From NCBI RefSeq assembly GCF_021568775.1, contig NZ_JAKGSG010000040.1, positions 1-64,000 of the forward strand: 64,000 nt of DNA, in the 5' to 3' direction. This document shows positions 39,432 through 56,555 of the stretch, piece by piece. The notes under the pieces were generated by a model. That model was not told where the DNA came from, did no database searches, and saw only the letters and a program-made list of their open reading frames with translations. Each line of letters opens with the position of its first letter. The first letter of the stretch is position 1. The translations under genes and the position numbers were made by a program. Source of the stretch: Antribacter soli (GTDB lineage: Bacteria > Actinomycetota > Actinomycetes > Actinomycetales > Cellulomonadaceae).

Positions 39432-40655
39432 TTAGCCGAGGTGTGCCGGTGTCTCGCCGAACCGTTCCAGGATCGCCCGGTGGTCCGGCCCGAGGTCGGG
39501 CGTGGCAACGTAGTGCTTGGCAGTGATCGCGGTCCGCGTGTGCCCGAGCTGAGCGGCTGCGGCTTCGATGTCGGCGCCACGCTCGACGGCGGTCCCGACA
39601 CTCTTGCGGAATGTGTGCGGCGTGATCCAGCTCCATTCGGCGTGATGCACGCGGAACGTGCGCCACTGGCGATCGACGGTGGACACCTCCCGTAGCCCAG
39701 CGCGCACCGAGGGAAAGACGAGCCCGAGTTCGCCCGGCGGCACCTCGGCTGCACGGCGTTCGAGCATCGTCACGGCGAACTCGGGGATGAGGTGTCCTCG
39801 GGCCTTCTTGCCCTTGGTCGTGTCCTGCCGGAACAGGCCCACACGCTCCTCACGAACGACCGTCCCGGTCAGGTAGACCACGTGCTTGTCGAGGTCGACG
39901 TCTACCCAGCGCAGCGCGAGGGCTTCGCCGATGCGGCAGCCGGTGGCGAGCATGACGTCGACCAAGTCGCCGAGGTCCTGCGCCCTCGCCTTGGCGTCGG
40001 ACAAGAGGGCGGCGCGCAGCGTGACGACATCTTCGACCGATAGTGCCTGCACGTCCTTGGAAGCGGTGGCCGGTACCGGGGTTACCGAGGTCGCGGGGTT
40101 CGCCGTGATGGCGTCCTCGCGAACGGCGACGTCGAACATGCTCTTCAAGCAACTGAGCGCGATTCGCGCTGTCGCTTGGTGCTTCTCGACCTCACCGGCA
40201 ACCCATGCCTCCAAGCGCGAGACGGTGCACTCGCGCAGCAGCAGCCCGCCGAGTCCGGGGATGACGTACTGCTCGGTGGTGTACCGGTAGCGCTGCTTTG
40301 TGTTCACGGCTCGCTTGCTCGGATCGACCTTCGTCCGGAGCCAATAGTCGGCGAGGACTTCGAGACGCGTGTCCGCAGTGATCGTGTCCGAGGCAGCGCG
40401 CTTGCGGGCGGTGAGCTCGTCACGCAGGCGGCGTTCGGCCTCGGCACCAGTGGCGCCCCATGCCTCGACAGGTCGGGTGCGTCCGTCGTTGTCCCGGAAC
40501 CGGCAGCGGGCGGCCCAGCGGATCGACCTCAGGGGCACGAGCTCCCCGCCGGGCGTGTACCAGCTCTTGCCCTCACCGACGAGCTGCACGCGACCCAGGT
40601 AAGGGGTGCGGTTGATGTTCCCGTGGGATCCCACGGGCAGCGGCTTACGCGACAT
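39432..40655 (-). CDS. int: tyrosine site-specific integrase
   Basis: A 407-aa phage-type integrase. An N-terminal AP2-like/arm-binding region is followed by a SAM-like core-binding domain (about 100-190) and the catalytic domain. Catalytic residues are visible: Arg in GCRIGEALALRW, HTFRKS (HxxR), His in GHTRTAITAKHY and the Tyr nucleophile in KHYV. The ATG at 40653-40655 has GGAGG 9 nt upstream and overlaps the rep 3' end by 11 bp, so int, rep and xis form one leftward unit. It should catalyse insertion at tRNA-Thr. Confidence 0.94.
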   Translation of the reverse strand: MSRKPLPVGSHGNINRTPYLGRVQLVGEGKSWYTPGGELVPLRSIRWAARCRFRDNDGRTRPVEAWGATGAEAERRLRDELTARKRAASDTITADTRLEVLADYWLRTKVDPSKRAVNTKQRYRYTTEQYVIPGLGGLLLRECTVSRLEAWVAGEVEKHQATARIALSCLKSMFDVAVREDAITANPATSVTPVPATASKDVQALSVEDVVTLRAALLSDAKARAQDLGDLVDVMLATGCRIGEALALRWVDVDLDKHVVYLTGTVVREERVGLFRQDTTKGKKARGHLIPEFAVTMLERRAAEVPPGELGLVFPSVRAGLREVSTVDRQWRTFRVHHAEWSWITPHTFRKSVGTAVERGADIEAAAAQLGHTRTAITAKHYVATPDLGPDHRAILERFGETPAHLG

Positions 40656-42471
40656 GGTGTGCAACCTCCAGGGTGGTGAGGGTGTGGTTCGGGCGGCACC
40701 GGGCCGTGTAGCCCGGGCCGGTCAGGGGCTCGCCGCAGTCGGGGCAGGGGGCGTCCTGAGATGAGGGGGAAGCGACACCCGCAACACCCGCAACACCCGC
40801 AACGTGGGGTCTGACCTGCGGGAACGCCTGCGGGTGTCGGTGCGGGTGTTCGCGGGTGTGCGGGTGTTTGACACCCGCGCCCCGCGCAACACCCGCGGGT
40901 ACACCTGCACCGTTTCCGGAGAATTCGCCCTGGTCAGCGGCGTGGTTGCGGGTGTGCGGGTGTTGCGGGTGTTCCTCCCCGGTCATCTCAGGTGGGACCA
41001 GCCGCCAGACGGCGACCTTCTGCCGAGTACGACCGGGGAGGTCGTCCACGACCCAGCCCGCGGACCGCAGCGCGGGTGCGTTGCGCTTCAGGACACCGGC
41101 GGCAGCCCGGGAGTTGCGCGGCCAGGTTCGCGGCAGGGCGCCGTCGGGCTGGACGATGCCCAGCAGCTCGGCGGCGGTGCCCTGCCAATGGGTCGTGACG
41201 TGCTCGGTGATGGCGGCGAGGAACGGGTCCGACGTGACCGCGTCGGCGGCCATGCTGTTGGCCTGGTCCTGGTAGGCGGCCAGGCTGTTGGTGCCGTGCA
41301 CCTGGTCCAGCGCTGCCAGCACCATCGCGAAGTCGGCCATGCGAGGCATGGCGTCCAACCGCACCGACCGGATGCGGGCCTTGCCCACGGCGACCTGTGA
41401 CAGCAGCGCGCCGAACACGCGCGGCCACGCGGCCTCCCACGCGGTCATGAGCTGGGACTCGGGGCGGCGCCGGTCCTCGGTGATCCGGTCGAGGTTGACC
41501 ACGATGGACCGGTCCGCGAGGTCCGGCGCCATCGCGCCGACGTCGATGCCGTTCATCACGAGCACGCGGCGGAACGAGAACACGGCAAGCCCGTCGTCGC
41601 TGTAGAGCTGGCGGCGCACGTCGCCGTCACCGGTCACGGCCCGGCACAGCGAGTCCGACAGCCACGCGGGGATGGTGGACATGTTGTCCAGCCCGACGAC
41701 CCAGGAGCCCTGGGCGGCGGTCACCCACGCCTCGACGTCCTTGGGCGGCTTGCGCACCGACACCGGGGACGGGTCCACGAGCTGAACCAGGTTCCGGGTC
41801 GCCGAGCTCTTGCCGGTGCCCTGCTCCCCGAGCAGGGCGAGCATCGGGTGCGGGATGCGCGCCCACCCGAGGGCCGCCACGAGCCAGCCCAGCACGAGCG
41901 GCCGGTCCGACGGAGTGACGTTCAGCAGCTCCCACAGCTCGTCCAGGCTCCCGCCCGGTTCCGGAGTCGGCAGCGCCGCGGTCAGGACGCTCCGGCGGAA
42001 GAGCACCGGGCACTCGGCCACGACCTCCCAGCCGCGTGCGTCCACGCGGACCACGCGCTCGGTGGTGTCGCCCAGGTCGATCCAGGTTGCGCCGTCGTGC
42101 TCGGCGACGCGGACATGCACTGCCTCGGGCTCGCACTCGGCGGCGGTGCCCTCCAGGACGAGCAGCGCGTCCGCGAGGGCCTGCCCACCAGCGATTGCGC
42201 CGGTGTGCTGCCGGTAGGCCTTGGCGAGCTCGGCGCGCAGCGAGCCCTTGCCGCGCAGCATCCGCACCACGTTCCCGCCCGTGCGGGGCACCGCGTAGGG
42301 CTCCCCGTCCGGGGTGCAGCCGAGGTCGTAGCGCTCCAACGCCAGGTCCACCAGGATCGCGGCGGCAGACTTCCGCTCGGCCGAAGCCTCGCCCGCCGCG
42401 GTCTCTGCCGGGGCCGTGCCCTCGGCCGGAGCTTGGTCGGTGACCTTCTCGTCCTTGCGGGGGGCGCTCAT
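40645..42471 (-). CDS. P-loop replication protein of the AICE
   Basis: A 608-aa protein with a central ATPase resembling phage/plasmid helicase-type replication proteins: Walker A GEQGTGKSS (215-223), VVGLDN, and RRVLVMNGIDVGAMAPDLADRSIVVNLDRI. A C-terminal CPDCG plus ARC may bind zinc. Between about 530 and 575 it has low-complexity VAGVAGVAGVA and HPHTREHPHRHP, encoded by a repeated GCGGGTGT DNA array. Position between excisionase and integrase, with a Prim-Pol upstream, supports a role in autonomous replication. Start overlaps the excisionase stop (ATGA). Confidence 0.8.
   Translation of the reverse strand: MSAPRKDEKVTDQAPAEGTAPAETAAGEASAERKSAAAILVDLALERYDLGCTPDGEPYAVPRTGGNVVRMLRGKGSLRAELAKAYRQHTGAIAGGQALADALLVLEGTAAECEPEAVHVRVAEHDGATWIDLGDTTERVVRVDARGWEVVAECPVLFRRSVLTAALPTPEPGGSLDELWELLNVTPSDRPLVLGWLVAALGWARIPHPMLALLGEQGTGKSSATRNLVQLVDPSPVSVRKPPKDVEAWVTAAQGSWVVGLDNMSTIPAWLSDSLCRAVTGDGDVRRQLYSDDGLAVFSFRRVLVMNGIDVGAMAPDLADRSIVVNLDRITEDRRRPESQLMTAWEAAWPRVFGALLSQVAVGKARIRSVRLDAMPRMADFAMVLAALDQVHGTNSLAAYQDQANSMAADAVTSDPFLAAITEHVTTHWQGTAAELLGIVQPDGALPRTWPRNSRAAAGVLKRNAPALRSAGWVVDDLPGRTRQKVAVWRLVPPEMTGEEHPQHPHTRNHAADQGEFSGNGAGVPAGVARGAGVKHPHTREHPHRHPQAFPQVRPHVAGVAGVAGVASPSSQDAPCPDCGEPLTGPGYTARCRPNHTLTTLEVAHHVA
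40775..40972. repeat. iteron-like GCGGGTGT array (candidate oriV)
   Basis: Twelve exact copies of the octamer GCGGGTGT or its complement ACACCCGC lie within 198 bp inside the 3' part of rep: three at a 9-bp period from 40775, four between 40830 and 40867, two inverted at 40871 and 40889 and three between 40948 and 40972. Clustered short repeats within or beside a rep gene are typical of iteron origins. The role is inferred. Confidence 0.65.
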
Positions 42472-42686
42472 GCTGCGCTCCGGCCGAACTGCTCATCGAT
42501 CCACGCCTCGACGTCGGCGAGGCGGTAGCGCAGGTGGCGGCCGATCTTGACCCCGGGCGGGGTCGGGCGTCCGGCGGAGCGCTGCCCGTACAGGGTCCGC
42601 ACCGGGATGCGGAGCATGTCGGCCACCTCCTGCGGCGTGAGCAGCACGGGGACAGCGCGGACGGGCCGGATGGTCTGTGCGGTCAT
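42468..42686 (-). CDS. xis: excisionase-like helix-turn-helix protein
   Basis: A 72-aa MerR/excisionase-type HTH protein: LLTPQEVADMLRIPVRTLYGQRSAGRPTPPGVKIGRHLRYRLADVEAWI is the usual winged-HTH pattern of AICE Xis proteins (given here as a reading of the whole domain, residues 15-65). It overlaps rep by 4 nt and lies two genes from int. It should bend att DNA to favour excision. Confidence 0.85.
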   Translation of the reverse strand: MTAQTIRPVRAVPVLLTPQEVADMLRIPVRTLYGQRSAGRPTPPGVKIGRHLRYRLADVEAWIDEQFGRSAA

Positions 42687-42702
42687 GGCGTGTTCCTCCA
42701 GT

Positions 42703-42906
42703 TCAGGCGTTGGGGCTCGTGGTCATGTGCGACGGGCGGAGCTGGAACCGGCCGAAGCGGCCCGACGTCGCCCGGGCGGGTGCGCACGTCGTGCACAGGC
42801 CCTTGCCCCGGTAGAGCCGGGACTCGGCGGGTCGGTCGTCGGCGCGGGTGCCGGCGGAGTGCACGGGATACCCGCAGCCGGTGCAGTGCGTGGGCCGTGT
42901 GGTCAT
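42703..42906 (-). CDS. small zinc-ribbon-like protein
   Basis: A 67-aa protein with two CxxC pairs (CTGC near residue 8 and CTTC near 39), a likely zinc ribbon. Function unknown. Its ATG overlaps the stop of the next gene upstream (ATGA at 42903-42906), so it is translated as part of the leftward AICE operon. Confidence 0.65.
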   Translation of the reverse strand: MTTRPTHCTGCGYPVHSAGTRADDRPAESRLYRGKGLCTTCAPARATSGRFGRFQLRPSHMTTSPNA

Positions 42907-43349
42907 CGCTGGTCCCCCTCGACGTCGTCGGCCTCGGAGCGGTCGGCGGCCTCGCGCTTCTCGGCCTCGGTGCGGTCGTCCAGCGGTCGGCCGTCGTAGC
43001 CCTCGCCATAGACCCGGCCCGGGGCGTCGTCGGGCAGGACCCGCACCACGGGGACGGTGAGGATGCGGGCGCGAACGGCCGTGGCGAGGTGGTGGCCGAG
43101 GCGCTCGGCGACGTCGCGCCAGGACTCGCCCGGCCCGGGCGTGACGTCCCGGGCCGGGATGGCGTGCAGCTCGACGGCGAGCACGCGGGCGAGGTGGTCC
43201 AGGTCCAGGGCGGCGTCCAGGGCGCGCAGGGCGACGGTGCGCCAGTAGGCGCGGCGGGCCGGGGAGCGCCGCTCCCACGGGATGGCGGAGTCCGGGCGGG
43301 TGTAGGCGGCGCGGGCCGCGCGCTCCAGCGGCGTCAGGTCGGTGCTCAT
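42903..43349 (-). CDS. AICE operon protein of unknown function
   Basis: A 148-aa, mainly helical, charged protein without a recognised domain. It begins MSTDLTPLERAARAAY and ends in an acidic/basic tail. The ATG has AGGAG 7 nt upstream. Codon use and overlap with the following zinc-ribbon gene support it being real. It probably belongs to the replication/transfer region, but no specific role can be given. Confidence 0.65.
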   Translation of the reverse strand: MSTDLTPLERAARAAYTRPDSAIPWERRSPARRAYWRTVALRALDAALDLDHLARVLAVELHAIPARDVTPGPGESWRDVAERLGHHLATAVRARILTVPVVRVLPDDAPGRVYGEGYDGRPLDDRTEAEKREAADRSEADDVEGDQR

Positions 43350-43365
43350 GGCTGTCTCCTGCGGG

Positions 43366-43644
43366 TCAGAGCGGGCGGATGGTGTAGTGGGCGGGGCCGT
43401 ACCCGCAGGCCGGGCAGGCGCCGTCAAACTCGGCCGGTGCCTCGGCGCACCAGGCGCACGCCCTCTCGTGGGTGTCGTGCCCGCAGCCGGGGCAGTAGGT
43501 GTGCACCGTCCGGGTGGCGGGCGCTCCGCACGGGTCCTCGAGGTGGTAGATCCCGTCGGCGAGGTCGGCGTCCCACACGTCCCAGACCATGAGCCGCACC
43601 TCGCAGGTGCCCGGGGCGGTGGTGCGCGGGGTGGTGGTGTGCAT
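43366..43644 (-). CDS. small multi-CxxC protein
   Basis: A 92-aa protein with three CxxC motifs (CPGC, CAWC, CPAC), suggesting one or two zinc-binding ribbons. Function unknown. It lies 13 nt downstream of the Prim-Pol gene and 16 nt upstream of the next ORF, in the same direction. Confidence 0.6.
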   Translation of the reverse strand: MHTTTPRTTAPGTCEVRLMVWDVWDADLADGIYHLEDPCGAPATRTVHTYCPGCGHDTHERACAWCAEAPAEFDGACPACGYGPAHYTIRPL

Positions 43645-43657
43645 GGTGGTTCTCCTC

Positions 43658-44641
43658 TCAGGCAGCCCGGCGGGCGGTGATCGTGCGGGGGGTGCGGGCG
43701 CCGCGGCGCAGCCCGGACCGGACGGTCGCGAGGGCTTCGGCGTCGGTGAACGCCCGGGCGGTGACGTGCCCGGCGGCGGCGTCGAGGAGGGCGTTCGTGG
43801 CGGTGTGCTCGGTCAGCGCGCCCCCGCCAACGAGCTGCCCGAGCGCGACGGCGGCGATGAACAGCGAGTGATTCCGGGTGCCCTCGGTCGCCTCCCGCAC
43901 GCGGGCGGTCTCCCCCTCGACGGCGGCCCGGACGTACCCGGTGACGCGGTCGAGGTCGGCCGGGACGGTGCGCGCTGTGCGGCTTCCGGGGTCGGGCATC
44001 GTCGGGCCGGTGAGCAGATCGGTCAGCCATCCGGGCAGGGGTGCGGGGGCGGCGTAGCTGACGACGTCGTAGACGCCGGTGTTGGTCCGGGTCGGCGGGG
44101 CGACGACGTAGCCGCCGGTCGCGCGGGTGTCGATCAGCCAGCCGAGGCGCCCGGCGGTGTTGCCCAACTCGATGCCGTCCGGACGGGTGTAGTACCGGTG
44201 GATGCCTCCGGACGGGGTCCGGACGGTCCAGGTGTCCGGCAGGGGCTCGTGATCAGCGACGAGGGCGGACAGCACGTCCTCGCCCGACGTCGCGCGGCCG
44301 GTCCACTCGGCGGGGGTGCGGGCGCCGGGCTTGGGGGTGTCGGTGTCGATCACCAGCAGCCCGGACGGGCCGGTCGCGATCCCGATGCCGTAGGGACGGC
44401 TGGACCAGGCGCGGGTGATCCGGCCCTGGTCGGTCGTGGCGCGCTGCTGCCAGCCGGTGTGCCCGTTGCGGCACCACCAGTCGGTGCGGCGGTCGCACTC
44501 GTGCTCGGGGTGCCGCGGTGCGGCGGGGCGCTTCCCGCCGGGGATGAGGGGGAACAGGTGCCAGTTGCGGGCGGCGTACTCCAGGGCGGAGGCGAGCAGC
44601 GCGCCGTTCGGCGTCGAGCTCGCGCGGTTCGTGGTGGTCAT
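43658..44641 (-). CDS. bifunctional DNA primase/polymerase (Prim-Pol)
   Basis: A 327-aa archaeo-eukaryotic-type Prim-Pol domain protein. Visible are WHLFPLIPGGKRPA, GIGIATGPSGLLVIDTD (catalytic acidic residues), TPSGGIHRYY (conserved His) and GGYVVAPP, all family hallmarks. It likely primes or copies the element during its extrachromosomal phase, with the P-loop Rep protein as helicase. This marks the element as RepPP-like rather than RepSA-like. The ATG at 44641 has GGAGGG 10 nt upstream; an in-frame start 14 codons earlier is possible. Confidence 0.88.
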   Translation of the reverse strand: MTTTNRASSTPNGALLASALEYAARNWHLFPLIPGGKRPAAPRHPEHECDRRTDWWCRNGHTGWQQRATTDQGRITRAWSSRPYGIGIATGPSGLLVIDTDTPKPGARTPAEWTGRATSGEDVLSALVADHEPLPDTWTVRTPSGGIHRYYTRPDGIELGNTAGRLGWLIDTRATGGYVVAPPTRTNTGVYDVVSYAAPAPLPGWLTDLLTGPTMPDPGSRTARTVPADLDRVTGYVRAAVEGETARVREATEGTRNHSLFIAAVALGQLVGGGALTEHTATNALLDAAAGHVTARAFTDAEALATVRSGLRRGARTPRTITARRAA

Positions 44642-44699
44642 GTCGAGCGTCCCTCCGTGCTGGTCCAGCTCTGTTTTGGGCATGGCTCACGCAGGGGGC

Positions 44700-44880
44700 A
44701 TGGCTAGCGCTAGCGCGCGGACCGGTCCCTGAGCGGGCGGGTAGACGGGGTTTGCGGGGCTGCGGTGGCGGGTCGCTAACCCGCTAGATCGGCGGTATCT
44801 GGCGGTTTCCCGGGCTAGCGGGAGTGCTAGGGCTAGCGGCCGGGGGCCTAGCCCCCGCCCGGCCTGCGGCGGCCGGGCGG
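44700..44880. promoter_or_regulatory. CTAG-rich intergenic region
   Basis: The 258-bp gap between the Spd and Prim-Pol genes has seven CTAG tetramers within about 150 bp, including the perfect palindrome GCTAGCGCTAGC (44703-44714) and GCTAGC at 44814 and 44832. CTAG is normally rare in high-GC genomes. It ends in a GGGGGCCTAGCCCCC hairpin (44843-44857) that could terminate the Spd transcript. Regulator binding or a transfer locus is possible. Confidence 0.5.
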
Positions 44881-44899
44881 GGCAGCGCGGGTGCTACCG

Positions 44900-45970
44900 C
44901 TACGCCCCGGCGCGGACGGTCTCCAGGTCGCGGCGGGCGGTGCGGTCGGTGACGTCGTGCCCGGCAGCGGTGAGAGCTGCGAGGGCGGCGGCGGAGTCGG
45001 CGGCGGGGTCCTCGGCAACGAGGGCGGAGACAATGGCCAGGCGAGCGGCCTTGTCGGCGTTGGCGGGTCCGGCGGGGCGGACGGACCGGCGGACGGTGCG
45101 GGGCTTATCGGTCCGGACAGCCGGGCCGACGGTCGCCCGGACAACGGGGCGGGTCTGTCCGGCGGCGGACACCGGGGCGGACAGGGACCCGGACACGAGG
45201 GCGGACAGGTCGGCGGACACGGGGGCGGACAGGTGGCGGGTGTCCGGGACGGACAGCCCGGACATGGGGGCGGTCAGGATGCGGGCCAGGCGGGCGGTGT
45301 CCTCGGTGAACAGGGACGCGGTGTCCGCAGTGCCCTCCCCCACGGCCCGCATGGAGTCCAGCCAGGCGGTGACTGTGGCGCGCATCTGGTCGGGCGGGAC
45401 GGTGCGCAGCGCGACGGCGCGGGCGCGGCGGCGGGCGGCTTCGGCGCGGGCGATGCGGCGGCGGGCGGTGTGCGTGCCGTCGTCGGCGGCCTGGGCGCGG
45501 TAGAGGTCTTCGGTGGCGAGAAACAGGGCGTGCATCCGGCCTCCGGCGCGGACCTGGGTCCAGGTGCGGCCGGTGGCGAGGTGGCGGTCTCCGATGAGGG
45601 CGAGGTGCCACATCAGGGCGGCCAGGAGCGGGACGAGGAACCGGAAGAACGCGGCTCCGGCCTCGTGGCCGATGTAGAGCTCGTGCCAGGCGGCGAACCC
45701 GCCGGACGCGGAGGACAGGACCCAGGTGAGGGTGAGCAGGGTTCCGCCGGGGCGGTTGTCCCGGGCGGCCTCGCGGGCCAGGAGGGCCACGGTGATGAGG
45801 GACAGCTCGAACACGCCTGCGGTGGTGAACGCGACCGCGGGGCTCATGCCGAGCACGTCCAGGCCGAACGCGACCATGGCGAGGTAGGCGGAGCCGGTTG
45901 AGATGAGGGCGACGGACACGGCACCGGCCAGGACGAGGCGGCGGGAGCCGGGGGCGGGGGTGGTGGTCAT
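44900..45970 (-). CDS. DUF2637 / SpdB-like plasmid spread protein
   Basis: A 356-aa protein. The N-terminal 130 residues form about four membrane segments with the DUF2637 pattern (FGLDVLGMSPAVAFTTAGVFELSLITVALLAREA). The remainder is cytoplasmic, Ala/Arg-rich, with SAPVSADLSALVSGSL repeats and an HTH-like C-terminus (ALTAAGHDVTDRTARRDLETV). Such Spd proteins assist intramycelial or cell-to-cell spread beside TraB in Streptomyces plasmids and AICEs. The start follows AAGGAGG, 5 nt after the traB stop. Confidence 0.8.
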   Translation of the reverse strand: MTTTPAPGSRRLVLAGAVSVALISTGSAYLAMVAFGLDVLGMSPAVAFTTAGVFELSLITVALLAREAARDNRPGGTLLTLTWVLSSASGGFAAWHELYIGHEAGAAFFRFLVPLLAALMWHLALIGDRHLATGRTWTQVRAGGRMHALFLATEDLYRAQAADDGTHTARRRIARAEAARRRARAVALRTVPPDQMRATVTAWLDSMRAVGEGTADTASLFTEDTARLARILTAPMSGLSVPDTRHLSAPVSADLSALVSGSLSAPVSAAGQTRPVVRATVGPAVRTDKPRTVRRSVRPAGPANADKAARLAIVSALVAEDPAADSAAALAALTAAGHDVTDRTARRDLETVRAGA

Positions 45971-45975
45971 GGTGG

Positions 45976-48213
45976 TCAGTCCTCCTTGTCGTCGTGCGGG
46001 GTGTCGATGGTGTTGCCGAGGGCGGCCAGGACGTCGTTGCGGGCGATGGCGCGCTTGTTGACCTGGCGGCCGTCTACGACGCGGTTGTGCTGCACGGCGC
46101 GGATGCCGTAGGGCTTGAGCGCGGTGGTGACGTTCTGGGCGGTCCATCCGGCGTAGACGCCGGGCAGGTGCTCTGTGAGGCGGGCGGCGAGCTCGTCGGC
46201 CCAGACCTTGGGCTCGGTGCCGGGCCAGGCCGCGATCAGGTGGTCGAGCACGGACGACAGGTCCAGGTCGGCGGGGGTTTCGCCTGCGGCCATGCCGGTC
46301 AGGCGCCCGGCGGCGGCCCGGGCGACACGCGCGCGGGCGGCGATGGCGGCGGCGCCGTCGGCGTCCACGTAGCTCGTGCGGACGATGACGGGGTCGTCAC
46401 CCTCACCGGCGAGCCACGCGGTGCCCAGGTCCGAGCGGGAGAACATCGTTGCCCGGATGCCGGTGGAGTAGGCGCCGGTGCCCAGGACCATGTCGTTGGC
46501 GGTGTGGTCGGAGACCTTCAGGCACAGCCGCAGGATCGCGTTGGCCTTGATCCCCACGGGGATGGACTTGGCGTCCGGGCGCTGGGTGGCGCACCAGACC
46601 ATGATTCCGGCGGCGGGACCGCGCTTGACCAGGTCGGTGACGAGGTCGGAGATCGCCGAGCCGTGGTCGGGGTGCTCGAACGCGATCTGCGTTTCGTCGA
46701 TCGCCAGGAAGATCGGGTGCAACGCGAGCTCACGGCGGCCCGCGAGCTCGTCGGTCACCTTGGACTCGGGGCAGACCTCGCGCGGCAGGCCGCGCAGCAC
46801 CTTGTACCGGCGGCGCATCTCGGCCACCAGGGCCTTGAGGTCGGCCAGGATGAACGCGATGTCTTCGGGCTCGTCCCCGGCCCGGAACGCGTGCGCGACG
46901 TCGGCCAGCGGCAGGTGGTCCGCGCCGCCCTTCATGTCGAAGACGTGCAGCTCGACGCGGGGGTCCAGGGCGGCGGCGAGCTCGATCAGGCGCAGGCTGA
47001 ACGTCTTGCCCATGCGGGGCACCGCGCCCACGACACCGGATGCGTACATCAGGGTCGTGGTGACCTTCCGGCCGCGGTGGTCCACGCCCAGCGGGATGGG
47101 CGTGAACACGTTCGTGCGGCCCGCCTTGACCAGCGGCCACGGCGCGGGGCGGGCCTTGGACAGCGGGCGGTCCCCGACCCACAGCACCAGGCGCCCGGCG
47201 TGCGCCTCGGGGTCACGCTCTGGCCAGACCTGCGACTCGTGCCGCTGCAGACCCGATGCGAGCTTCTCGCGGCGGTCCATGACCTCGGCGGCCGTGGCGC
47301 CGGCGGGCAGGTCGATGTCCGCGCGGAACCCGGCACCGTCACGCACCAGCGCCAGGAACCGGATGGCCTTGGGGTCCTTGCCCGCGGGGCCGTTGATCGA
47401 GGACAGGCCCAACGAGGTCAGCGCGGCGGCGATCAGGTCAGCGGTCAGGCGCGGGGCCTCGGCCTTGTCCATCGCCCGGGATGTGATCCGCCCGTCCTTG
47501 GCCCGCCCGACCAGGCCCAGCACGCCGAGCGAGGCGGCCACGGCGATGGCCTGCGTCATGGGGTCGGCCTGAGCCGCGACCACGCCGCCCGACGCGAGGA
47601 CGGCCAGCCCGGACCCTGCAACGAACGCGCGGCCGCGAGCCTGGTTGCGGCGCTCCTCGCGAATCCTCAGGTAGCCCTCGGCGGTCACGCCCGAGGTGAG
47701 CAGCGCGCGGCGGGCGTCGCGGTGCTCGGAGTCGGCGACCCACCGCCACACGGCGGCGGTGATCCGGGCCGCGCCCCACGGTGAGCGAGCCGCGACCCGC
47801 AGCGCGTACAGCGGCAGGCGCACGCCGTGGAACGCGCCAGCCTTGCCGTAGTACCGGCAGGCCCACGACGTCGAACCCACCAGCGCCGAACGCGACGTTA
47901 GCCAGTCCGGCAGTACCGCGCGCTCGAACGCCTCGCCCCGGCGCGGACCACGGCGCCCGTCGTGGTCGCGGTGCTCGATCACCCGCGGCACCCGGCGCGC
48001 CGGGACGTCCTCGACCCGCTCGGGGTCGATGACCTCCCCGTCGAGCGCGTCGAGGGCGGCGAGCTCGTGACCGAGCGCGTCGAGGTCATTACCGTGCTGG
48101 ACCAGCGCGGCGCCCTGGTTCAGCCCCCGGGCCTCGACCTCGCGGCCGGGCTCGTCCTCGGTGCCGTACACGATCGCGTACAGCTCGCCGTCGTCCGGCG
48201 TGCGGTTCTCCAT
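45976..48213 (-). CDS. tra: FtsK/SpoIIIE-type conjugal DNA translocase (TraB/TraSA-like)
   Basis: A 745-aa transfer protein. After a variable N-terminus there are two likely membrane segments (about 205-240), then the motor domain with Walker A GAVPRMGKT (about 396-404), Walker B LAIDETQIAF and MVWCATQRPD. A winged-helix C-terminus (about 680-735) could recognise clt repeats. In actinomycete conjugation a single protein of this type moves double-stranded DNA. Its ATG overlaps the upstream stop by one base, so it is part of a leftward transfer operon starting near 49,096. Confidence 0.92.
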   Translation of the reverse strand: MENRTPDDGELYAIVYGTEDEPGREVEARGLNQGAALVQHGNDLDALGHELAALDALDGEVIDPERVEDVPARRVPRVIEHRDHDGRRGPRRGEAFERAVLPDWLTSRSALVGSTSWACRYYGKAGAFHGVRLPLYALRVAARSPWGAARITAAVWRWVADSEHRDARRALLTSGVTAEGYLRIREERRNQARGRAFVAGSGLAVLASGGVVAAQADPMTQAIAVAASLGVLGLVGRAKDGRITSRAMDKAEAPRLTADLIAAALTSLGLSSINGPAGKDPKAIRFLALVRDGAGFRADIDLPAGATAAEVMDRREKLASGLQRHESQVWPERDPEAHAGRLVLWVGDRPLSKARPAPWPLVKAGRTNVFTPIPLGVDHRGRKVTTTLMYASGVVGAVPRMGKTFSLRLIELAAALDPRVELHVFDMKGGADHLPLADVAHAFRAGDEPEDIAFILADLKALVAEMRRRYKVLRGLPREVCPESKVTDELAGRRELALHPIFLAIDETQIAFEHPDHGSAISDLVTDLVKRGPAAGIMVWCATQRPDAKSIPVGIKANAILRLCLKVSDHTANDMVLGTGAYSTGIRATMFSRSDLGTAWLAGEGDDPVIVRTSYVDADGAAAIAARARVARAAAGRLTGMAAGETPADLDLSSVLDHLIAAWPGTEPKVWADELAARLTEHLPGVYAGWTAQNVTTALKPYGIRAVQHNRVVDGRQVNKRAIARNDVLAALGNTIDTPHDDKED

Positions 48214-48596
48214 CAGGCAGCCCTCCCAGCGTTCTCGTCGTGCACGGGTGCGGTGCTCTCCCACTCGGCCAGCCACGCCGCCGGGACGTCCACGGCGGCG
48301 TCGGCGGGCCACTCCGTGCGGGCGGCCAGCCACTCACGCTCAAACCGCTCCAGGGACGGGCGACCCACGGTCTCGAAGTGCTCGACCAGCTCACGCGAGC
48401 CGTACGCCTCCACACGGGCGTACGGCCCGGTCATCAGCGAGAACGAGTCGATACCGGCGGCCCTGCCGCGACGGTTGAGCAGACACGCGTTCGTCACCTC
48501 CTCGGCGGCCTCATAGGCGGCCTGGACGACCAGGTCGAACTCAGCGCGCATCGCCACCCACTGCCGGGCGGCCTCATCGAAGATCGGCGAACCCAT
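48213..48596 (-). CDS. transfer-operon protein of unknown function
   Basis: A 127-aa soluble protein, not recognised. It is helical with many Glu/Ala residues (FDLVVQAAYEAAEEVTNACLL) and a Trp-rich end (EWESTAPVHDENAG). Both ends overlap neighbours by one base (TGATG), which places it firmly in the tra operon. Confidence 0.7.
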   Translation of the reverse strand: MGSPIFDEAARQWVAMRAEFDLVVQAAYEAAEEVTNACLLNRRGRAAGIDSFSLMTGPYARVEAYGSRELVEHFETVGRPSLERFEREWLAARTEWPADAAVDVPAAWLAEWESTAPVHDENAGRAA

Positions 48597-49279: not shown

Positions 49280-50113
49280 ATGGCGAGCCACGACGACATC
49301 GACGGCAAGAAGGCCCGCGTCGCGCGGACCATCCGCAACGACATCGAGGCCGGGGTGCTCCGCGACGGGGAAGCGCTGCCCTCCACGCGGGCCCTCGCTG
49401 AGCAGATGGACGTCAGCGTCTTCACGATCAACGAGGCCATGAAGCTGCTGTCCGCTGAGGGACTGATCGAGAACCAGTCCCGCTCTCGTCGCGTCGTGCG
49501 CAGCGGCGTCGTCCGCCCGGCAGCGCGCACAGGGCGACCGCCTCACGCCTTCCTCGTTGGTGGCTACGCCGGCAGTGGCAAGTCCGAGTTCGGGCGCGTC
49601 CTGTCGCGCCTGACTGGAGCGCCGATCATCGACAAGGACACGATCACCAGGCCCGTAGTGGAAACCGCCCTGGAGGTCATGGGCTTACCGCCGCACGACC
49701 GAGACTCTGAGGTCTACCTCGAGCGCGTTCGCCCGCGGGAGTACGAGGCGCTGATCGACGCAACCCTGGAGAACGCCGAGGTCGGGGTTGGACCCATCGT
49801 CACAGCACCGTTCGTCAGGGAGTTCGGCGACAAGGCGTGGATCGAGCGCGTGACCACGCAGCTCCGCACCCGTGGCGTAGGTGTCACGTTGGTCTGGGTG
49901 GATTGCGACGTCGAGACGATGCACACCTACCTGCGCCGCCGCGGTGCCGCAAGGGACTCGATCAAGCTCGGCGACTGGGACGGCTACCTCTCGAAGATCA
50001 ACGTCGACTTTCGGCCCAAGGCTGAGCACCTGGTCATCAACAACTCGGCCTCCAGCGAGCCGCTGCAGGCGCAGGCCATGCGACTGCTCGCCAACGTCGT
50101 CGAGCACGCATGA
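49280..50113 (+). CDS. GntR-type regulator fused to a P-loop (zeta-toxin-like) kinase
   Basis: A 277-aa fusion. Residues 1-78 are a GntR winged HTH (VARTIRNDIEAGVLRDGEALP, RALAEQMDVSVFTINEAMKLL). Residues 88-277 are a P-loop kinase with Walker A GGYAGSGKS (94-102), IIDKDTIT and an Arg-rich lid (YLRRRGAARD), close to AAA_33/zeta-type small-molecule kinases. GntR repressors (KorSA) control transfer in AICEs, but the kinase fusion is unusual. The ATG has AGGAGG 9 nt upstream. The stop overlaps the next gene (ATGA). Confidence 0.82.
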   Translation: MASHDDIDGKKARVARTIRNDIEAGVLRDGEALPSTRALAEQMDVSVFTINEAMKLLSAEGLIENQSRSRRVVRSGVVRPAARTGRPPHAFLVGGYAGSGKSEFGRVLSRLTGAPIIDKDTITRPVVETALEVMGLPPHDRDSEVYLERVRPREYEALIDATLENAEVGVGPIVTAPFVREFGDKAWIERVTTQLRTRGVGVTLVWVDCDVETMHTYLRRRGAARDSIKLGDWDGYLSKINVDFRPKAEHLVINNSASSEPLQAQAMRLLANVVEHA

Positions 50114-50646
50114 CAGGCGGCTCCGTGGGCGTGATCCTCTACGGCCCGCCCGCCGCCGGGAAGGACACCATCGAGCGGGCGCTCACGAAGCTCTCGGACA
50201 GGTTCCAGCACTACGCGCGGATCAAGGTCGGGTCGGGTCGGCGAGAGGGCTACAGACTCACCAGCGCGGAGGAGCTGGACCAACTGCGGGTTGCGGGGCA
50301 CGTGATCTGGGAGAACCGGGCGTACGGAGCTGTCTACGCCATCGATGGGCCGTCCCTCCGGTCGGCTCTTGCCGACGGGTCACCGGTGGTACATGTCGGC
50401 CAACCGGCCGCTGTCGAGGCAATCCAACGCGCCGCTGGTCCGGCGTGGGTTGTCGTTGACCTGTGGTGCCCTCGCGAGACGACGGCGGAACGCCTCACAG
50501 GCCGAGGAGCGAAGGACGTCCAGGAGCGGTTGAGGGTGTGGGACAACACGCCTCGCCTCCTCGGCGCGGACCTTGCAATCAACACGGGTCGGTTCGCGCC
50601 CGAAACGGCCGCAGCACTGATCGCCATGGCCGTTCGCGGCGCGTAG
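50110..50646 (+). CDS. guanylate-kinase-like P-loop kinase
   Basis: A 178-aa nucleotide-kinase-like protein. P-loop GPPAAGKDT (12-20) is followed by an internal block (GSGRREGYRLTSAEELDQL, then WENRAYGAVYAI) reminiscent of the GMP-binding segment of guanylate kinase, and a lid with RETTAERLTGRG. It is shorter and more diverged than the housekeeping enzyme. Translational coupling to the GntR-kinase gene (ATGA overlap) suggests the two P-loop proteins work together. Substrate unknown. Confidence 0.72.
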   Translation: MTGGSVGVILYGPPAAGKDTIERALTKLSDRFQHYARIKVGSGRREGYRLTSAEELDQLRVAGHVIWENRAYGAVYAIDGPSLRSALADGSPVVHVGQPAAVEAIQRAAGPAWVVVDLWCPRETTAERLTGRGAKDVQERLRVWDNTPRLLGADLAINTGRFAPETAAALIAMAVRGA

Positions 50647-50823: not shown

Positions 50824-51888
50824 ATGAGCACACCAATTGCGCCGCTTCCTAGTGCGATCGTCGGACTCCAATTGAACGATGGCTGGCGAATCGACTCAGA
50901 AGTCGTGATGACTGCTGCACAGACCGGCGGAAATTTCTCACTCTCATACAAGGGTTCTGACGCACAGGGCCGCCAAGGATTTATTAAAGTACTGAACTAC
51001 GAATATGCGCTCTCAACCCCCGACCCACCGGCGACCATGCAGGCGATGACGGAGGCTTATACCTTTGAGCGTCAACTCGTGGAGCGATGCAGTGCCGGGC
51101 GTCTAAGCAAGATCGTAAGGGCCTATTCGCACGGATCTGTGTATACGGCCGCGTGGGGGTTTGTGCCGGTATCGTACATCGTCTTCGAGCTTGCCGAATC
51201 CGATGTGCGGAAGGCGCTGGATCTCTCACAGAGTCTCGATCTTGTGGTCAAATTGCGACTCGCGCACAATGCGGCAACAGGGGCGGCGCAGCTCCATGGC
51301 ATCGGTGTAGCGCACCAGGACATTAAGCCGAGCAATCTTCTTGTTTTTGGAAGCAATTCGCCAAATGCAAATGACTCGAAGCTCGCGGATCTCGGCAGGG
51401 CAAGTGACCGAAACGTGGCGGCCTGGCACGATTCCCTTACGATCGCAGGAGACCCGGCATACGCGCCGCCGGAGCAACTGTATCGCGAGGCCCACGACTC
51501 GTTTGAAAAGCGACGTTTGGCGTGCGACATCTACCAGGTTGGCAACCTCGCCTCTTTCATCCTCACGGGTGTCTCGTTCAACGCGCGCCTCCATGCCCTC
51601 CTGCACCCCGTCCACAATTGGCACAACTGGCAAGGCGATTACGACGAGGTTCTACCGTACGTGCAAGCCGCACATGCCACAGCCGTCCAGCAGATAGAGG
51701 CCGAGATTGGAGGCCCCCTCGCGGGAAGAATTGCTTCGCTGATATCCAATCTCACCGACCCTGATATTGAGAATCGGGGCCATCCCGAGTCAAGGCGCAG
51801 GGGCGAGCCGTACGCCATGAATCGGATCGTTTCCGAGTTCGACCTGCTGTCCCGTCGTGCCGAACTGCTCGTAAAGGCGAACTGGTAA
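50824..51888 (+). CDS. protein kinase of the element's kinase-TPR operon
   Basis: A 354-aa diverged Ser/Thr protein kinase. The ATP lysine is probably Lys55 (GFIKVLNY), the catalytic loop is HQDIKPSN (164-171, Gln for the usual Arg) and the metal motif is DLG (189-191). AYAPPEQL and DIYQVGNLASFILTG follow, so the fold is complete. No membrane segment is seen. Base composition is clearly less GC-rich than the AICE backbone, suggesting later acquisition. The start has GAAGGA just upstream. Its TAA overlaps the ATG of the TPR gene (TAATG), so the pair forms one unit. Confidence 0.78.
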   Translation: MSTPIAPLPSAIVGLQLNDGWRIDSEVVMTAAQTGGNFSLSYKGSDAQGRQGFIKVLNYEYALSTPDPPATMQAMTEAYTFERQLVERCSAGRLSKIVRAYSHGSVYTAAWGFVPVSYIVFELAESDVRKALDLSQSLDLVVKLRLAHNAATGAAQLHGIGVAHQDIKPSNLLVFGSNSPNANDSKLADLGRASDRNVAAWHDSLTIAGDPAYAPPEQLYREAHDSFEKRRLACDIYQVGNLASFILTGVSFNARLHALLHPVHNWHNWQGDYDEVLPYVQAAHATAVQQIEAEIGGPLAGRIASLISNLTDPDIENRGHPESRRRGEPYAMNRIVSEFDLLSRRAELLVKANW

Positions 51889-53435
51889 TGGGCGTGCTCC
51901 TCCGTGTGTCCGAAGACCGACATGTAGTGCCGCGATGGCGGGCATTCGCGCGCACTTTGAGGAACGGCGAACTGGGCATCTTTGGACCAGACGGCGAACA
52001 GAGCCCCGGCCCCGCCCATCTTGACGCCCGGACGCGCGTCCAGATCGAGGCGGACCTGGCATCGTTTGAGTTGCACCCCGGGCGGTACCTGGCTAGTGAC
52101 CTGTTGAGCCGCGTGCTTGAGGGTCAGGTGGATCCTCGCAGGGCAGTGAGGATCGCGCGCCATGTGATCGACACGGAGGGTGCCGATACCTCGCTGCGGA
52201 GTGTCGCCGACGAAGCGGCGCGGCGATACGATCCCGAGCGGAGTGCGGAGGAACTGGTTCTAACGGCTCCACCACCGCCGATCGACCCCCGGGTGGTGGT
52301 CAGAGATGCGCGGAAAGTGTTGGCGAGGTCGCCGCGGAATGCCGTCGTGTGGACCGATCTTGCGCTCGCTCAAACTGAGTCTGGAGAACTCGCACGGGCT
52401 CACCGGTCCATCTCCGTCGCATTGTCCCTCGCGCCGCGAAACCGTTTCGTCGTCCGGTCCGCTGCACGGTTCTACGTGCATGTCGGCGAGCCCGATCGCG
52501 CCCGTTGGGTGCTCAATAGGGCAGAGCGATGGTCGGACCCGTGGATCGTTTCCGCCGATATCGCCGTGGCTACGATCCTGGGTGATGCGCCGCGGTCGTT
52601 CATGCGGCGTGCCGGGCGCTTGCTAGACGGCTCGCATGCTGCGCGCGACACAAGTGAACTGGCATGCGGTCTCGCGAGCCTTGAATTTAGTTCTGGGAAC
52701 CGGAAGTCCGGGAGAAGGCTGATCACTCTAGGCCTGGAGAACCCTACCGAGAACGCGGTAGCTCAGGCAGAGTTCGAGGCTCAGCGATCTGCTTTCGAAC
52801 TTCCGGAATCCATGGTCGAGGTTCCTGGCAGCCACGAGGCCCAGGCGCTGGATCTCCTTGACCGTGGCGAATGGGAGCCAGCGGCGTCCGCGGCACAAAA
52901 GTGGCAGGCCGATCAGCTCTTCGACCCGGACGCGGCTATGCACCTGTCATATTTGGCGTCCGTTGGCCTTGAGGACTTCGAGACGTCCAGGAGGGCCGCG
53001 CAATCTGGTCTGATTGCCAATCCAGATAACGCGATCCTCTGGAACAACGCGGCATTTGCGGCTGCGAATCTCGGCGAGTTGGCTGAGGCCACCACACTCC
53101 TGGAACGCGCTCGTCAGTTGCTCGTACTCGCACCGGGAGACGACGTGTCATTCACTGCCACTCAAGGCCTGATCGAGTTTCGATCTGGCAATATCGATCG
53201 GGGCCGAGCCGCGTACCGTCAGGCGGTGGAGTCCGCCCAGGGGCACAAGCTCACGAGTCTCGCGGCTCTTGCGGCCGCGTACTGGCTGCAAGAGGAGTCC
53301 TTAGCGAACGAGCACTTGGACCGCGGGGTGATAGAGGACGCCGTTTCACTGGTCCAGTCCAGCCGTGAAAAGGGTGCGCAGGCGGTGCTCGATCGCGTAG
53401 CTAAGCGGATCGGGTTGACAGCGGACGAGACCTAA
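51888..53435 (+). CDS. TPR-repeat protein paired with the kinase
   Basis: A 515-aa protein. Residues 1-130 form an N-terminal domain I do not recognise (MGVLLRVSEDRHVVPRW then a Leu/Asp-rich helical stretch). From about 140 to 500 there are tetratricopeptide-like helical pairs, for example RNAVVWTDLALAQTESGELARAHRS and NAILWNNAAFAAANLGELAEATTLLERA (each quoted as a family-like pattern). TPR arrays usually bind partner proteins, so it may sense a trigger or present substrates to the kinase. Coupled translation with the kinase and the defence-rich setting support a two-gene system. Confidence 0.72.
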   Translation: MGVLLRVSEDRHVVPRWRAFARTLRNGELGIFGPDGEQSPGPAHLDARTRVQIEADLASFELHPGRYLASDLLSRVLEGQVDPRRAVRIARHVIDTEGADTSLRSVADEAARRYDPERSAEELVLTAPPPPIDPRVVVRDARKVLARSPRNAVVWTDLALAQTESGELARAHRSISVALSLAPRNRFVVRSAARFYVHVGEPDRARWVLNRAERWSDPWIVSADIAVATILGDAPRSFMRRAGRLLDGSHAARDTSELACGLASLEFSSGNRKSGRRLITLGLENPTENAVAQAEFEAQRSAFELPESMVEVPGSHEAQALDLLDRGEWEPAASAAQKWQADQLFDPDAAMHLSYLASVGLEDFETSRRAAQSGLIANPDNAILWNNAAFAAANLGELAEATTLLERARQLLVLAPGDDVSFTATQGLIEFRSGNIDRGRAAYRQAVESAQGHKLTSLAALAAAYWLQEESLANEHLDRGVIEDAVSLVQSSREKGAQAVLDRVAKRIGLTADET

Positions 53436-53770: not shown

Positions 53771-54367
53771 TCATTCCCGATGGAGGGTGGCAACCAGGTC
53801 CGGCATCGAAGTCGAAGGGTTGCCGCCCATGTTCGTTCTCCCAGGGTTCCCAGCTTCCACCGCCCGCCGGATCGCGTCGCCGAACTTCCCGTACGGAAAA
53901 TTTGACGGAATGCTCTTGTCGACGATTCCGAAGTTCTCCAGTCGGCGGCTGAGCGACTTGGGAGTCTCATGCCTTCGACAGTCTTCATGATGCCACAATA
54001 GCCAGATCTCAAAGCAGGGATTGGAAATGACCATCGGAATCTTGTGTTTCCGTGCTAGTGCGATTGCCTTGTCTAAGCTCGCATGTTCGTCAACATCAAC
54101 GACAGCCCAGACCTCGTCGAAGGCCTCATTGGCGCCTATGGCCCGATCGCGGTCATCAATAGCACGTTGAACGATCCTCTCAGGGTCCTGTCCCAGACCT
54201 TTCACATCAAGTCCGCGGACGCTGATTCCACTCCTGCGAAAGTGTTGAACTAGGCCCTGGAGATACTGCCTCTCGGTTACGGGTCCCTCGGCGACAATGA
54301 GAATCCGAGTCCGTTCTTTGCGTGGCCGGTTCGGCCGTTGAATACTACGACCCCGCTTTGCGGCCAT
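53771..54367 (-). CDS. RloB-like protein of an AAA ATPase/RloB (AbiL-type) defence pair
   Basis: A 198-aa RloB-family protein. After a basic N-terminus (KRGRSIQRPNRPRKERTR) come ILIVAEGPVTERQYLQGL, WAVVDVDEHASL and the conserved SNPCFEIWLLWHHED, the Toprim-like acidic and family signatures. RloB-type proteins act as the nuclease or effector partner of an AAA ATPase in phage-resistance pairs such as AbiL. The ATG shares a base with the ATPase stop (TGATG). Base composition is lower in GC than the AICE backbone. Confidence 0.82.
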   Translation of the reverse strand: MAAKRGRSIQRPNRPRKERTRILIVAEGPVTERQYLQGLVQHFRRSGISVRGLDVKGLGQDPERIVQRAIDDRDRAIGANEAFDEVWAVVDVDEHASLDKAIALARKHKIPMVISNPCFEIWLLWHHEDCRRHETPKSLSRRLENFGIVDKSIPSNFPYGKFGDAIRRAVEAGNPGRTNMGGNPSTSMPDLVATLHRE

Positions 54368-55701
54368 CAACCGCGCTCCCCGGTTGCGGCCTCAGGGATT
54401 GCATTTCGCTCGATAAGCGAAGCGAGGAATGCTGGCGCAACTGCCGGAACCGCCCCATATCGGCCCTGCAGGTACCGACGCGAGTAGTTGTGGTCGCTTC
54501 TGTGTGGGAAGTCGGCGAGGGAAAATATCGAACTTGCACCGTCGCGCCCCTTTTCAACAAAGAAGACTTCTTCAGGGGATATGTTCAACTCAGACGTAGG
54601 CGACAGAAAGTACGTGTCGTGCGTCGTGAATATCAGCTGGGCACGTCGGGGATTGGTTTCAGGGTCGGCGAACATTCGGATCATCACCTGAGCGAGCTGG
54701 GGATGAAGGCTGGCGTCCAACTCGTCAACAACGAATAGAGTACCGCGCCGCATCGCTGAAATCGCGGGGGCTGCGAGGGAGAGCCACGTCAGCGTCCCTG
54801 TACTTTGCAGATCCGATGGCAGGGAGTAGATGTCATGGTCGGCCCCGATGTGCTCAAAGAGCAGCACACGTGCAGCCTCGGCGGCGATCTTATCCAACTC
54901 CTCCTCGCTGATTTCTGATTCCTGCACCGCCTCGAAAACCGCCCGGAGAACTCGCAGCTCCTTGGGGTGCCGTTCGTTGACCTTTACCTGTGCACCGGCG
55001 ATCCCCACGTCGGCCACCTTAAGCATCGTTCGGAGATCCTCAATACGAAAGTCCCCGGTGGTGACCTCTTCAATCAGCGATTGCAAGCGAGTGAAGCGAT
55101 CCGATTCACCGAACTTGGCAACGTCGATTCCGTCGACAATTGCGCTGCAAAGGTCACCAAGTTGGTCGTTCCCCACCACCCGACCTTTGGAGAGCACAAG
55201 TTCCCTCTGACCCAGGGCTTGACGCAAGAGCGCTTCGCCACCGCCAAGCGCGCGCCCAAAGTTGAGGTCATGACCATTCCTCTCGAAGAGGATCCTCTTC
55301 CGGCCGGTCGGATACGAGTAGAGCCACTCCTCGATCACGGCATCACGCGTGACAGAGAACCCATATTCGTGACGGACACCGTTGTGCAGGAAGTCCATTA
55401 CGTATGTTGAAGGCTCTTTCCCAGAAGTGTGGTCGAGTCGAAAGTGCGACCTGCCCAACGTCTTTCTGGTAGACCACGAAGTGGCGGATTCCGCGATGAT
55501 CGTCTTGAAATAGAGGATGGCGTCGACGAACTGTGACTTTCCCGAGGCGTTCGCACCGTAGATCGCCGCAATTGACGCAACGTACGGCTCCCAGGATCCG
55601 TTCTTCGGCAGGCTTGTCTGCAGACTGCTTCGAACCAGGCTGAGCTCCGCTTCGTCACGGAAGCTCCCATGGTTCTGGACGGTGAACCGGAGCATGAACA
55701 T
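54367..55701 (-). CDS. AAA ATPase (AAA_15/OLD-like) of the AbiL-type defence pair
   Basis: A 444-aa ABC/SMC-like ATPase. MLRFTVQNHGSFRDEAELSL is the typical N-terminal strand, Walker A is GANASGKS (49-56), Walker B is LFVVDELDASLHPQL and the end has LIFTTHDTYFLSP. No Toprim nuclease is fused; the partner RloB gene follows with one-base overlap. The pair resembles AbiL/RloAB phage defence. The ATG at 55701 lies 6 nt after a good -10 (CATAAT, minus, 55708-55713) without Shine-Dalgarno, so a leaderless start is predicted. Confidence 0.85.
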   Translation of the reverse strand: MFMLRFTVQNHGSFRDEAELSLVRSSLQTSLPKNGSWEPYVASIAAIYGANASGKSQFVDAILYFKTIIAESATSWSTRKTLGRSHFRLDHTSGKEPSTYVMDFLHNGVRHEYGFSVTRDAVIEEWLYSYPTGRKRILFERNGHDLNFGRALGGGEALLRQALGQRELVLSKGRVVGNDQLGDLCSAIVDGIDVAKFGESDRFTRLQSLIEEVTTGDFRIEDLRTMLKVADVGIAGAQVKVNERHPKELRVLRAVFEAVQESEISEEELDKIAAEAARVLLFEHIGADHDIYSLPSDLQSTGTLTWLSLAAPAISAMRRGTLFVVDELDASLHPQLAQVMIRMFADPETNPRRAQLIFTTHDTYFLSPTSELNISPEEVFFVEKGRDGASSIFSLADFPHRSDHNYSRRYLQGRYGAVPAVAPAFLASLIERNAIPEAATGERG

Positions 55702-55713
55702 GCAAGTATTATG

Positions 55714-56070
55714 CACGCTCGTGCCCGGATGCGTCGAGTTTCGACAGCCCAGGACGTGAGCGTGCATCCGATCCGACGTTCCCGGGGGGCCGATCCGATG
55801 ACTTCCATTGACGGGGGGAAACTAGCCCCTGCCAACTCGTGCGGGTGGTGCGCGGATGCTCAGCGCTTGAATGCGCGAGGCTTCCCGCTGGCCGCCCTCG
55901 GGGCGGTCCTCGCGGGCGTCCCCTTCTTGTTCGACTCCTGGCGGTGGGCGCCCCTTCTCCTCTCGCGCTTGCCTCTGCGGCGTGGAGCCTGTGGGAGTCG
56001 TCGCGGTTACCCTTCTTGCCGGCTTCTCGGAGATTCCACAACCCGCCCTGGAGGGGTCGACCCGACCGCC
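55714..56070. other. 357-bp region without a supported gene
   Basis: Between the AAA ATPase promoter and the 3' end of the small right-end gene. Arg/Pro-rich open frames exist on both strands but show no start signal, domain or convincing codon bias. A -35 for the ATPase promoter would fall near 55,730. Nothing else recognised. Confidence 0.5.
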
Positions 56071-56517: not shown

Positions 56518-56555
56518 AAACGGAAGGTCGTCGGTTCGAATCCGACAGGCGGCTC
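56518..56555 (+). repeat. attR core (38 bp tRNA-Thr 3' fragment)
   Basis: Exact copy of 35891-35928. It is the original chromosomal 3' end of tRNA-Thr, now cut off from its 5' half, and is not a functional tRNA. The next base (C instead of A) and the hairpin at 56568 are the host flank. Confidence 0.95.

Follow-up and report, generated by a model that had tools for sequence, protein, structure and literature searches.

The 64,000-nucleotide stretch of the Antribacter soli genome considered here (contig NZ_JAKGSG010000040.1, positions 1 to 64,000; 'the window') carries, towards the right end of an element of 20.6 kb that resembles the actinomycete integrative and conjugative elements (AICEs), a cargo of two overlapping genes, one for a protein kinase and one for a tetratricopeptide repeat (TPR) protein. 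Judged by sequence, this pair is a member of PDC-M71, a candidate family already catalogued but apparently untested: dedicated models for both proteins exist in PADLOC, and no paper testing the pair was found. An immune module is very likely, because the family recurs on mobile elements and beside phage-defence genes; the case for defence rests on family membership, on the pairing of the genes, on their distribution, and on their setting among defence genes, mobile elements and phage hotspots. There is about an even chance that the module is self-contained, acting against phages (or other mobile elements) through a TPR sensor and a growth-stopping kinase.

The kinase gene (50824-51888, + strand, 354 amino acids) ends in a TAATG stop/start overlap (51886-51890, + strand) in which it shares one base with the TPR gene (51888-53435, + strand, 515 amino acids). 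Pfam recognizes the first product as Pkinase (E 7.3e-11) and the second as TPR_2 (E 1.7e-9; several TPR models matched). The kinase has a catalytic loop HQDIKPSN (51313-51336, + strand) and a DLG motif (51388-51396); the TPR protein has an N-terminal RHVVPRWRAF motif (51918-51947, + strand). A gap of 177 bp separates the kinase start from the preceding gene, and the GC content of the pair, 61.1% (kinase 57.5%, TPR gene 63.5%), is well below the 73.3% of the element backbone (39432-48596). A sequence-only reading of the window had described the kinase motifs, the overlap, the 515-residue TPR-like partner, the upstream gap and the lowered GC, and in all of these it was right.

It had also proposed that the system was undescribed, and this does not survive comparison with PADLOC-DB 2.0.0 (2023), the source of the family models. 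The kinase matches PDC-M71A (PDLC04780) with E 3.2e-96 over positions 11-349 of a 352-position profile, and the TPR protein matches PDC-M71B (PDLC04781) with E 1.8e-92 over positions 7-503 of 515; the A and B genes are adjacent and on the same strand. PDC stands for phage defence candidate, according to the excerpted text of PMC11514479. The full text of open-licence PubMed Central papers, supplementary tables aside, yielded none naming PDC-M71, and none of the few papers listed for kinase-TPR defence pairs was on the subject by its title.

Relatives were gathered by scanning with an alignment of the TPR protein, which gave 23 loci in a collection of genomes from 84,980 species, three in plasmids and one in IMG/VR. 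Their record titles assign them to about ten phyla, though many are metagenome bins whose labels may be wrong. In every testable locus, 26 of 26 with the window included, the kinase gene lies directly upstream of the TPR gene; two further loci begin at a contig end and fall outside this count. This constancy of order, together with the nearly end-to-end PADLOC matches, makes the pair more than a chance arrangement. Among the 25 intact pairs, 17 overlap and eight are separated by 1-22 bp, with starts chosen by script; the remaining kinase (L031) is broken by a frameshift or truncation, and the TPR gene next to it is whole. Tree distances of the two proteins, compared in 25 pairs, are correlated with r = 0.75, a value that not one of 2000 permutations reached. 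A search of 23 related genomes or records gave exactly one M71B match in each (E <= 1e-10). Searching in the other direction, with a kinase alignment against IMG/VR, gave ten loci: seven full-length kinases, all with the TPR gene directly downstream, and three partial generic kinases without one. Plasmid records matching the kinase numbered 19; the match covered at least 80% in three, exactly the three that carry the TPR gene. No intact PDC-M71-type kinase without a TPR gene occurred among the examined loci, orphans having been sought in viral contigs and plasmids only. The pairing is thus near-obligate.

The pair is also rare, patchy and accessory. M71B was found in one of 396 genomes of the phylum, one of 200 of the family and one of two of the genus, in each case the window's own. 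Among 5426 complete Escherichia coli genomes, 13, strain TW10590 among them, carry a pair whose identity to the TW10590 pair is 99% or more. By strain name or series they form four groups: TW10590 and E500002 singly, the 0H series with six records, and the EC0026B series with five, which are described as derived in the laboratory from a single isolate. GenBank phage records gave no match to the two query proteins, P0001 and P0002, and only partial, weak kinase matches when the kinase of a P2-like relative (L064) served as query. A degenerate copy was seen on the Deinococcus wulumuqiensis plasmid pDrdB (L060, 5944-7179), where a kinase remnant is cut by the insertion sequence (IS) IS6 and the TPR gene is gone; the genes around the remnant are those that also surround an intact pair in Deinococcus sp. 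NW-56. Near that intact pair, itself on a plasmid, lie genes annotated as a Pycsar effector and a nucleotide cyclase (L012, 14225-16553).

The neighbours of the pair in other genomes provide much of the case for defence. A scan of up to five nearest genes on each side at 27 loci (207 of 289 proteins, at least 80 amino acids, E 1e-20) gave, among the matches listed, models for DISARM, for Type IIG, III and II restriction, for prokaryotic Argonaute (pAgo) and for other candidate systems; Type II restriction, DrmA, DrmC and PDC-S02 were matched in the neighbour proteins as a pool rather than locus by locus, and the one Type I restriction match is the same protein as one of the Type IIG matches. 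Control proteins from 15 of the same genomes (144 of 191 proteins; 15 of 20 stretches, L055-L059 being excluded; 11 of the 15 on the pair's own contig) matched, at the same threshold, only DndA, SspA, capP, mad3 and Csa3, one protein each. Size favours the neighbours in this comparison (72287 amino acids in 207 proteins, against 54984 in 191 controls), and the genes come from a simple open reading frame caller that clipped some starts. Of 29 proteins scanned singly, picked mostly for length, nine matched at 1e-40 or 1e-20.

Locus by locus, Type IIG restriction adjoins the pair in L027 and L031, the latter also with pAgo; DISARM DrmB adjoins it in L017, a Type III restriction gene with its methylase in L023, PDC-S39 in L020 and a PDC-M55C-like gene in L013. 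The BrxHI-like helicase adjoining L032 may be a generic helicase. Mobility genes also lie nearby: MobF relaxases (L010, L014 and L016), integrases (L016 with tRNA-Pro, L028 with tRNA-Arg and L035 with tmRNA), an IS3-type transposase (L015), and plasmid carriers typed as mobilizable, conjugative or non-mobilizable. Of the 23 relatives whose flanks could be used, 16 in all either lie on plasmid or viral contigs or have neighbours assignable to mobility or defence, mobility genes being counted here without a control; four short contigs (L018, L021, L024 and L030) stand outside this count. The sequence-only reading had suggested a survey of such neighbourhoods as a check on its proposal of a defence role; the DISARM, restriction and pAgo neighbours set against sparse control matches, with the mobile carriers, patchy distribution and phage hotspots, support that role well.

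Some carriers are phages or their satellites. In two P2-like relatives (L062 and L064), the pair sits between a gpA-type replication gene and P2-type packaging genes, with flanking genes matching a PHROG nicking protein and terminase; the portal protein is identified by similarity in L064, and in L062 by position only, where it was called as two frames. In a P4-like relative (L063), it lies between psu, whose product is 64% identical to that of P4, and the integrase gene, with a primase gene further out. These slots, P2 gpA-gpQ and P4 psu-int, are described as reservoirs of anti-phage systems in excerpts of PMC9122126. In E. coli the pair, which is again M71A/M71B (3e-94 and 5.8e-103), travels on elements with a MobQ relaxase; ThsB-type TIR genes adjoin it in TW10590, where it is uninterrupted at L037 13497-16220, and in EC0026B, whose element also carries AbiP2-type and retron-type reverse transcriptase genes. 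The TIR accession of E500002 is the same as that of EC0026B. A gene of the DotA/TraY family, with no PADLOC match, stands directly upstream of the kinase in the MobQ elements (L037, 10523-13180). In 0H26 (L039, 13497-17419), an IS5 copy splits the pair, leaving a kinase without its C-terminal tail and a TPR protein identical to that of TW10590. Unlike the actinobacterial window by itself, the E. coli, P2-like and P4-like copies open the way to a direct test in a K-12 laboratory strain against standard phages.

One way to understand a tightly coupled pair on mobile elements is as an addiction module: the kinase would be toxic alone, the TPR protein would restrain it, the element would be stabilized, and any effect on phage would be secondary. 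The two-gene order and the mobile carriers suit this perspective, as do the absence of intact kinases without a TPR gene among the examined loci, the broken kinase beside an intact TPR gene in L031, and the plasmid (L060) that retains only a truncated kinase where the TPR gene is gone. Antitoxins are usually small, and a solenoid of some 500 residues with strongly conserved positions would be an unusual one; the 0H26 kinase keeps its catalytic core even though IS5 separates it from the TPR gene, as it does by annotation in five sister records; and the P2 and P4 slots favour defence cargo. A toxin-antitoxin role therefore seems rather unlikely. A second perspective supposes that what the pair governs is its own carrier, through excision, transfer or lysogeny, and not incoming phages. 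The carriers (AICE-like, MobF, MobQ, P2-like and P4-like elements) speak for it, and KKP, the kinase-kinase-phosphatase system of Pf prophages, also controls prophage production according to the excerpted report (PMC11341870). These carriers differ in kind, which makes a common control circuit improbable, and the pair is found in restriction, DISARM and pAgo neighbourhoods as well; we regard element regulation as quite unlikely.

Within the favoured reading, that of a defence module, the two proteins would play different parts. Eight kinase residues, K55, E82, H164, D166, K168, N171, D189 and G191, are each kept in 26 of 26 aligned kinases. The residue before the catalytic aspartate is Q in 20 (the window's among them), N in two, L in two, M in one and R in one, so that 25 of the 26, the window kinase included, are non-RD, lacking the arginine-aspartate pair. 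The AlphaFold2 model (predicted local distance difference test, pLDDT, 90.7) has the canonical kinase fold (best Z 25.7, root mean square deviation 3.2, 272 aligned). The kinase is thus predicted to be active and catalytically complete, with the VAIK Lys, aC Glu, HxD, Asn and DxG residues of eukaryote-like kinases. Because these are kept in a kinase that is nonetheless non-RD, the family probably makes use of catalysis and is probably controlled by a partner, not by the usual activation-loop switch; a non-RD kinase that relies on its activation loop is, however, announced in the title of PMC8463890. Seven other kinase loci in the same genome show an HxD pattern in two, both HRD, too thin a sample to serve as an RD control.

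The TPR protein is predicted to be all-helical (AlphaFold2 pLDDT 86.0). What the sequence-only reading had called an unrecognized N-terminal domain resolves into further predicted helices (residues 47-119). Ahead of them stands a conserved peptide, RxxxPRWRxF (R11 and P15 in 28 of 28 proteins, R16 and W17 in 25, R18 in 22), which may be a built-in latch between receptor and kinase. Structural matches (VIA-align) include the TPR region of O-GlcNAc transferase, Pex5, APPBP2, AimR and Rap, among Z scores of 14.0-16.7. A ligand cannot be read from the fold: the matches are generic, closely spaced and barely cover residues 1-97. A library of viral protein structures likewise returned mostly generic repeat proteins, and sequence matches in the PDB were generic TPR proteins and kinases only (best 60 of 89 and best 60 of 1136, respectively). 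Of 325 pairwise comparisons, which are not independent, 318 show lower conservation in the TPR protein than in the kinase; this faster divergence fits a recognizing partner.

An intact non-RD kinase coupled to a faster-diverging TPR solenoid favours a TPR sensor controlling a growth-stopping kinase. That is, the solenoid would bind the kinase and recognize some product of infection; recognition would lead the TPR protein to release or reposition the catalytically complete kinase; the kinase would then phosphorylate host, possibly also phage, proteins; and growth or replication would stop before the phage had finished, as in abortive infection. Anti-phage activity, partner binding, the sensing partner, the targets and the outcome are all what we infer from this arrangement, and defence through toxicity has a precedent in the KKP kinases (PMC11341870, as excerpted). 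The sequence-only reading had proposed a TPR sensor of infection and a kinase directed at targets in the host, which would fit the complete catalytic site and the faster divergence of the TPR partner. A variant makes the TPR protein a substrate adaptor bringing phage proteins to the kinase, whose phosphorylation would block the phage and leave the cell unharmed. The long predicted superhelix would serve this purpose, and the rapid change of the TPR protein is what tracking of phage targets would produce; against this, no phage target is known and the solved TPR structures it resembles are generic. Such direct action is unlikely. A wider generalization is less probable than the sensor-kinase reading but not remote: a fast-evolving TPR receptor directly switching a non-RD kinase, parallel to the non-RD immune kinases of plants, might form a general immune module, spread over some ten phyla and carried as cargo in turn by AICE-like elements, plasmids, MobF and MobQ elements, P2-like phages and P4-like satellites.

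Several considerations weigh against the reading of the pair as a sensor-kinase defence module. To lie near defence genes and on mobile elements does not establish a function; toxin-antitoxin pairs and element regulators keep the same company. No mobile or defence gene could be assigned beside seven of the 23 relatives (L019, L022, L025, L026, L029, L033 and L034), and L015 counts as mobile solely through its IS3-type transposase. In the six records of the E. coli 0H series, IS5 has inserted where kinase and TPR gene meet (read from the sequence for 0H26, from annotation for the other five), so not every copy of the pair remains whole. TPRs are used as scaffolds and adaptors as commonly as sensors, and the faster divergence of the TPR partner could also mean weaker constraint. 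Finally, no plating or biochemical result was found for the pair.

The seven relatives without assignable neighbours bear also on a housekeeping role, in which the kinase would be an ordinary signalling enzyme with a TPR partner. Kinase and TPR domains are common in actinobacteria, and the same genome has ten other kinase-model matches. A housekeeping gene would hardly be absent from 395 of 396 genomes of the phylum, 199 of 200 of the family and the genus mate, or lie on a mobile element whose site is empty in that genus mate; from this distribution we judge the role highly improbable. The sequence-only reading had held that homologous pairs mainly in core, non-mobile contexts would tell against defence: this was not seen in 16 of the 23 relatives, and the contexts of the other seven are unassignable.

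The carrier itself is well delimited. Its left attachment site, attL (35891-35928, + strand), is the 3' end of a tRNA-Thr(TGT) gene (35855-35928), repeated exactly and directly over 38 bp in attR (56518-56555, + strand). Between the repeats lie, all on the - strand, a tyrosine integrase gene (39432-40655; Pfam Phage_integrase, 9e-19), a Prim-Pol replication gene (43658-44641; Pfam Prim-Pol, 4e-45) and an FtsK-like transfer gene (45976-48213; Pfam FtsK_SpoIIIE, 1.1e-5); a putative Rep gene (40645-42471) had no match in a Pfam search. This combination makes the AICE label sound, with excision and transfer predicted. In the genus mate, an empty site (G396:C46:161719-161842) has the tRNA and the right flank contiguous, with the 38 bp common to both; identity is 100% over the 74 bases of the tRNA and 95% over 88 bases to the right of attR. 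The AICE backbone recognized in the sequence-only reading is thereby borne out.

Upstream of the pair, and not belonging to it, stand two overlapping genes (49280-50646, + strand): a GntR regulator fused to an AAA_33 nucleotide-kinase-like domain (49280-50113) and a second small, P-loop kinase-like gene (50110-50646), an unusual form of element regulator. Downstream and convergent (53771-55767, - strand) is an AbiL-like pair, RloB/AbiLii (53771-54370; PADLOC AbiLii 1.7e-24, Pfam RloB 4.7e-34) and an AAA ATPase/AbiLi (54367-55767; PADLOC AbiLi 1.3e-84). The earlier placement of the kinase-TPR pair between a regulator module and an ATPase/RloB pair agrees with these Pfam and PADLOC assignments. 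At the other end of the element, between attL and the integrase gene (36003-38996), an HNH-domain protein (Pfam HNH, 5.9e-6) and a 639-residue protein with no Pfam match at 1e-4 are possibly another defence pair.

If the pair does act in defence, phosphorylation under the control of a separate receptor joins a small set of kinase-based phage defences. Stk2 and PD-T4-6, which belong to the same kinase superfamily, are described as single-gene systems. The window kinase matches Stk2 at 1e-7 and the best PD-T4-6 model at 1.3e-13; these matches are confined to the kinase core and fall about 270 bits or more below PDC-M71A, that to Stk2 covering residues 137-254 and profile positions 213-321 of 500 (29.1 bits). 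KKP resembles the pair in being Ser/Thr kinase activity borne on a mobile element and tied to phage defence and toxicity, as described in the excerpted PMC11341870, but comprises two HRD/DFG kinases and a phosphatase, whereas the window has one HQD/DLG kinase and a TPR protein; of the four neighbours between 49280 and 55767 scanned with Pfam, none is a phosphatase or a further protein kinase. DS-6, from DefensePredictor, is likewise a two-protein system of kinase and partner, and its protection needs a catalytic residue of its kinase, on the excerpted evidence of PMC13092281. Its kinase is HipA-related and its partner a DUF3037/DUF1829 protein, unlike the TPR protein; a Pfam search of the window pair matched neither HipA nor DUF3037/DUF1829. 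The plant non-RD immune kinases, such as EFR, share with the window kinase the lack of arginine in HxD, and non-RD kinases are associated with innate immune signalling across kingdoms in the excerpted text of PMC8463890. This likeness is one of analogy: the window kinase has no receptor ectodomain, and the demonstrable kinship is that of the kinase fold. The nearest comparison is with PDC-M71 itself, both of whose models the window pair matches almost end to end, in the gene order of its relatives and with no difference of substance.

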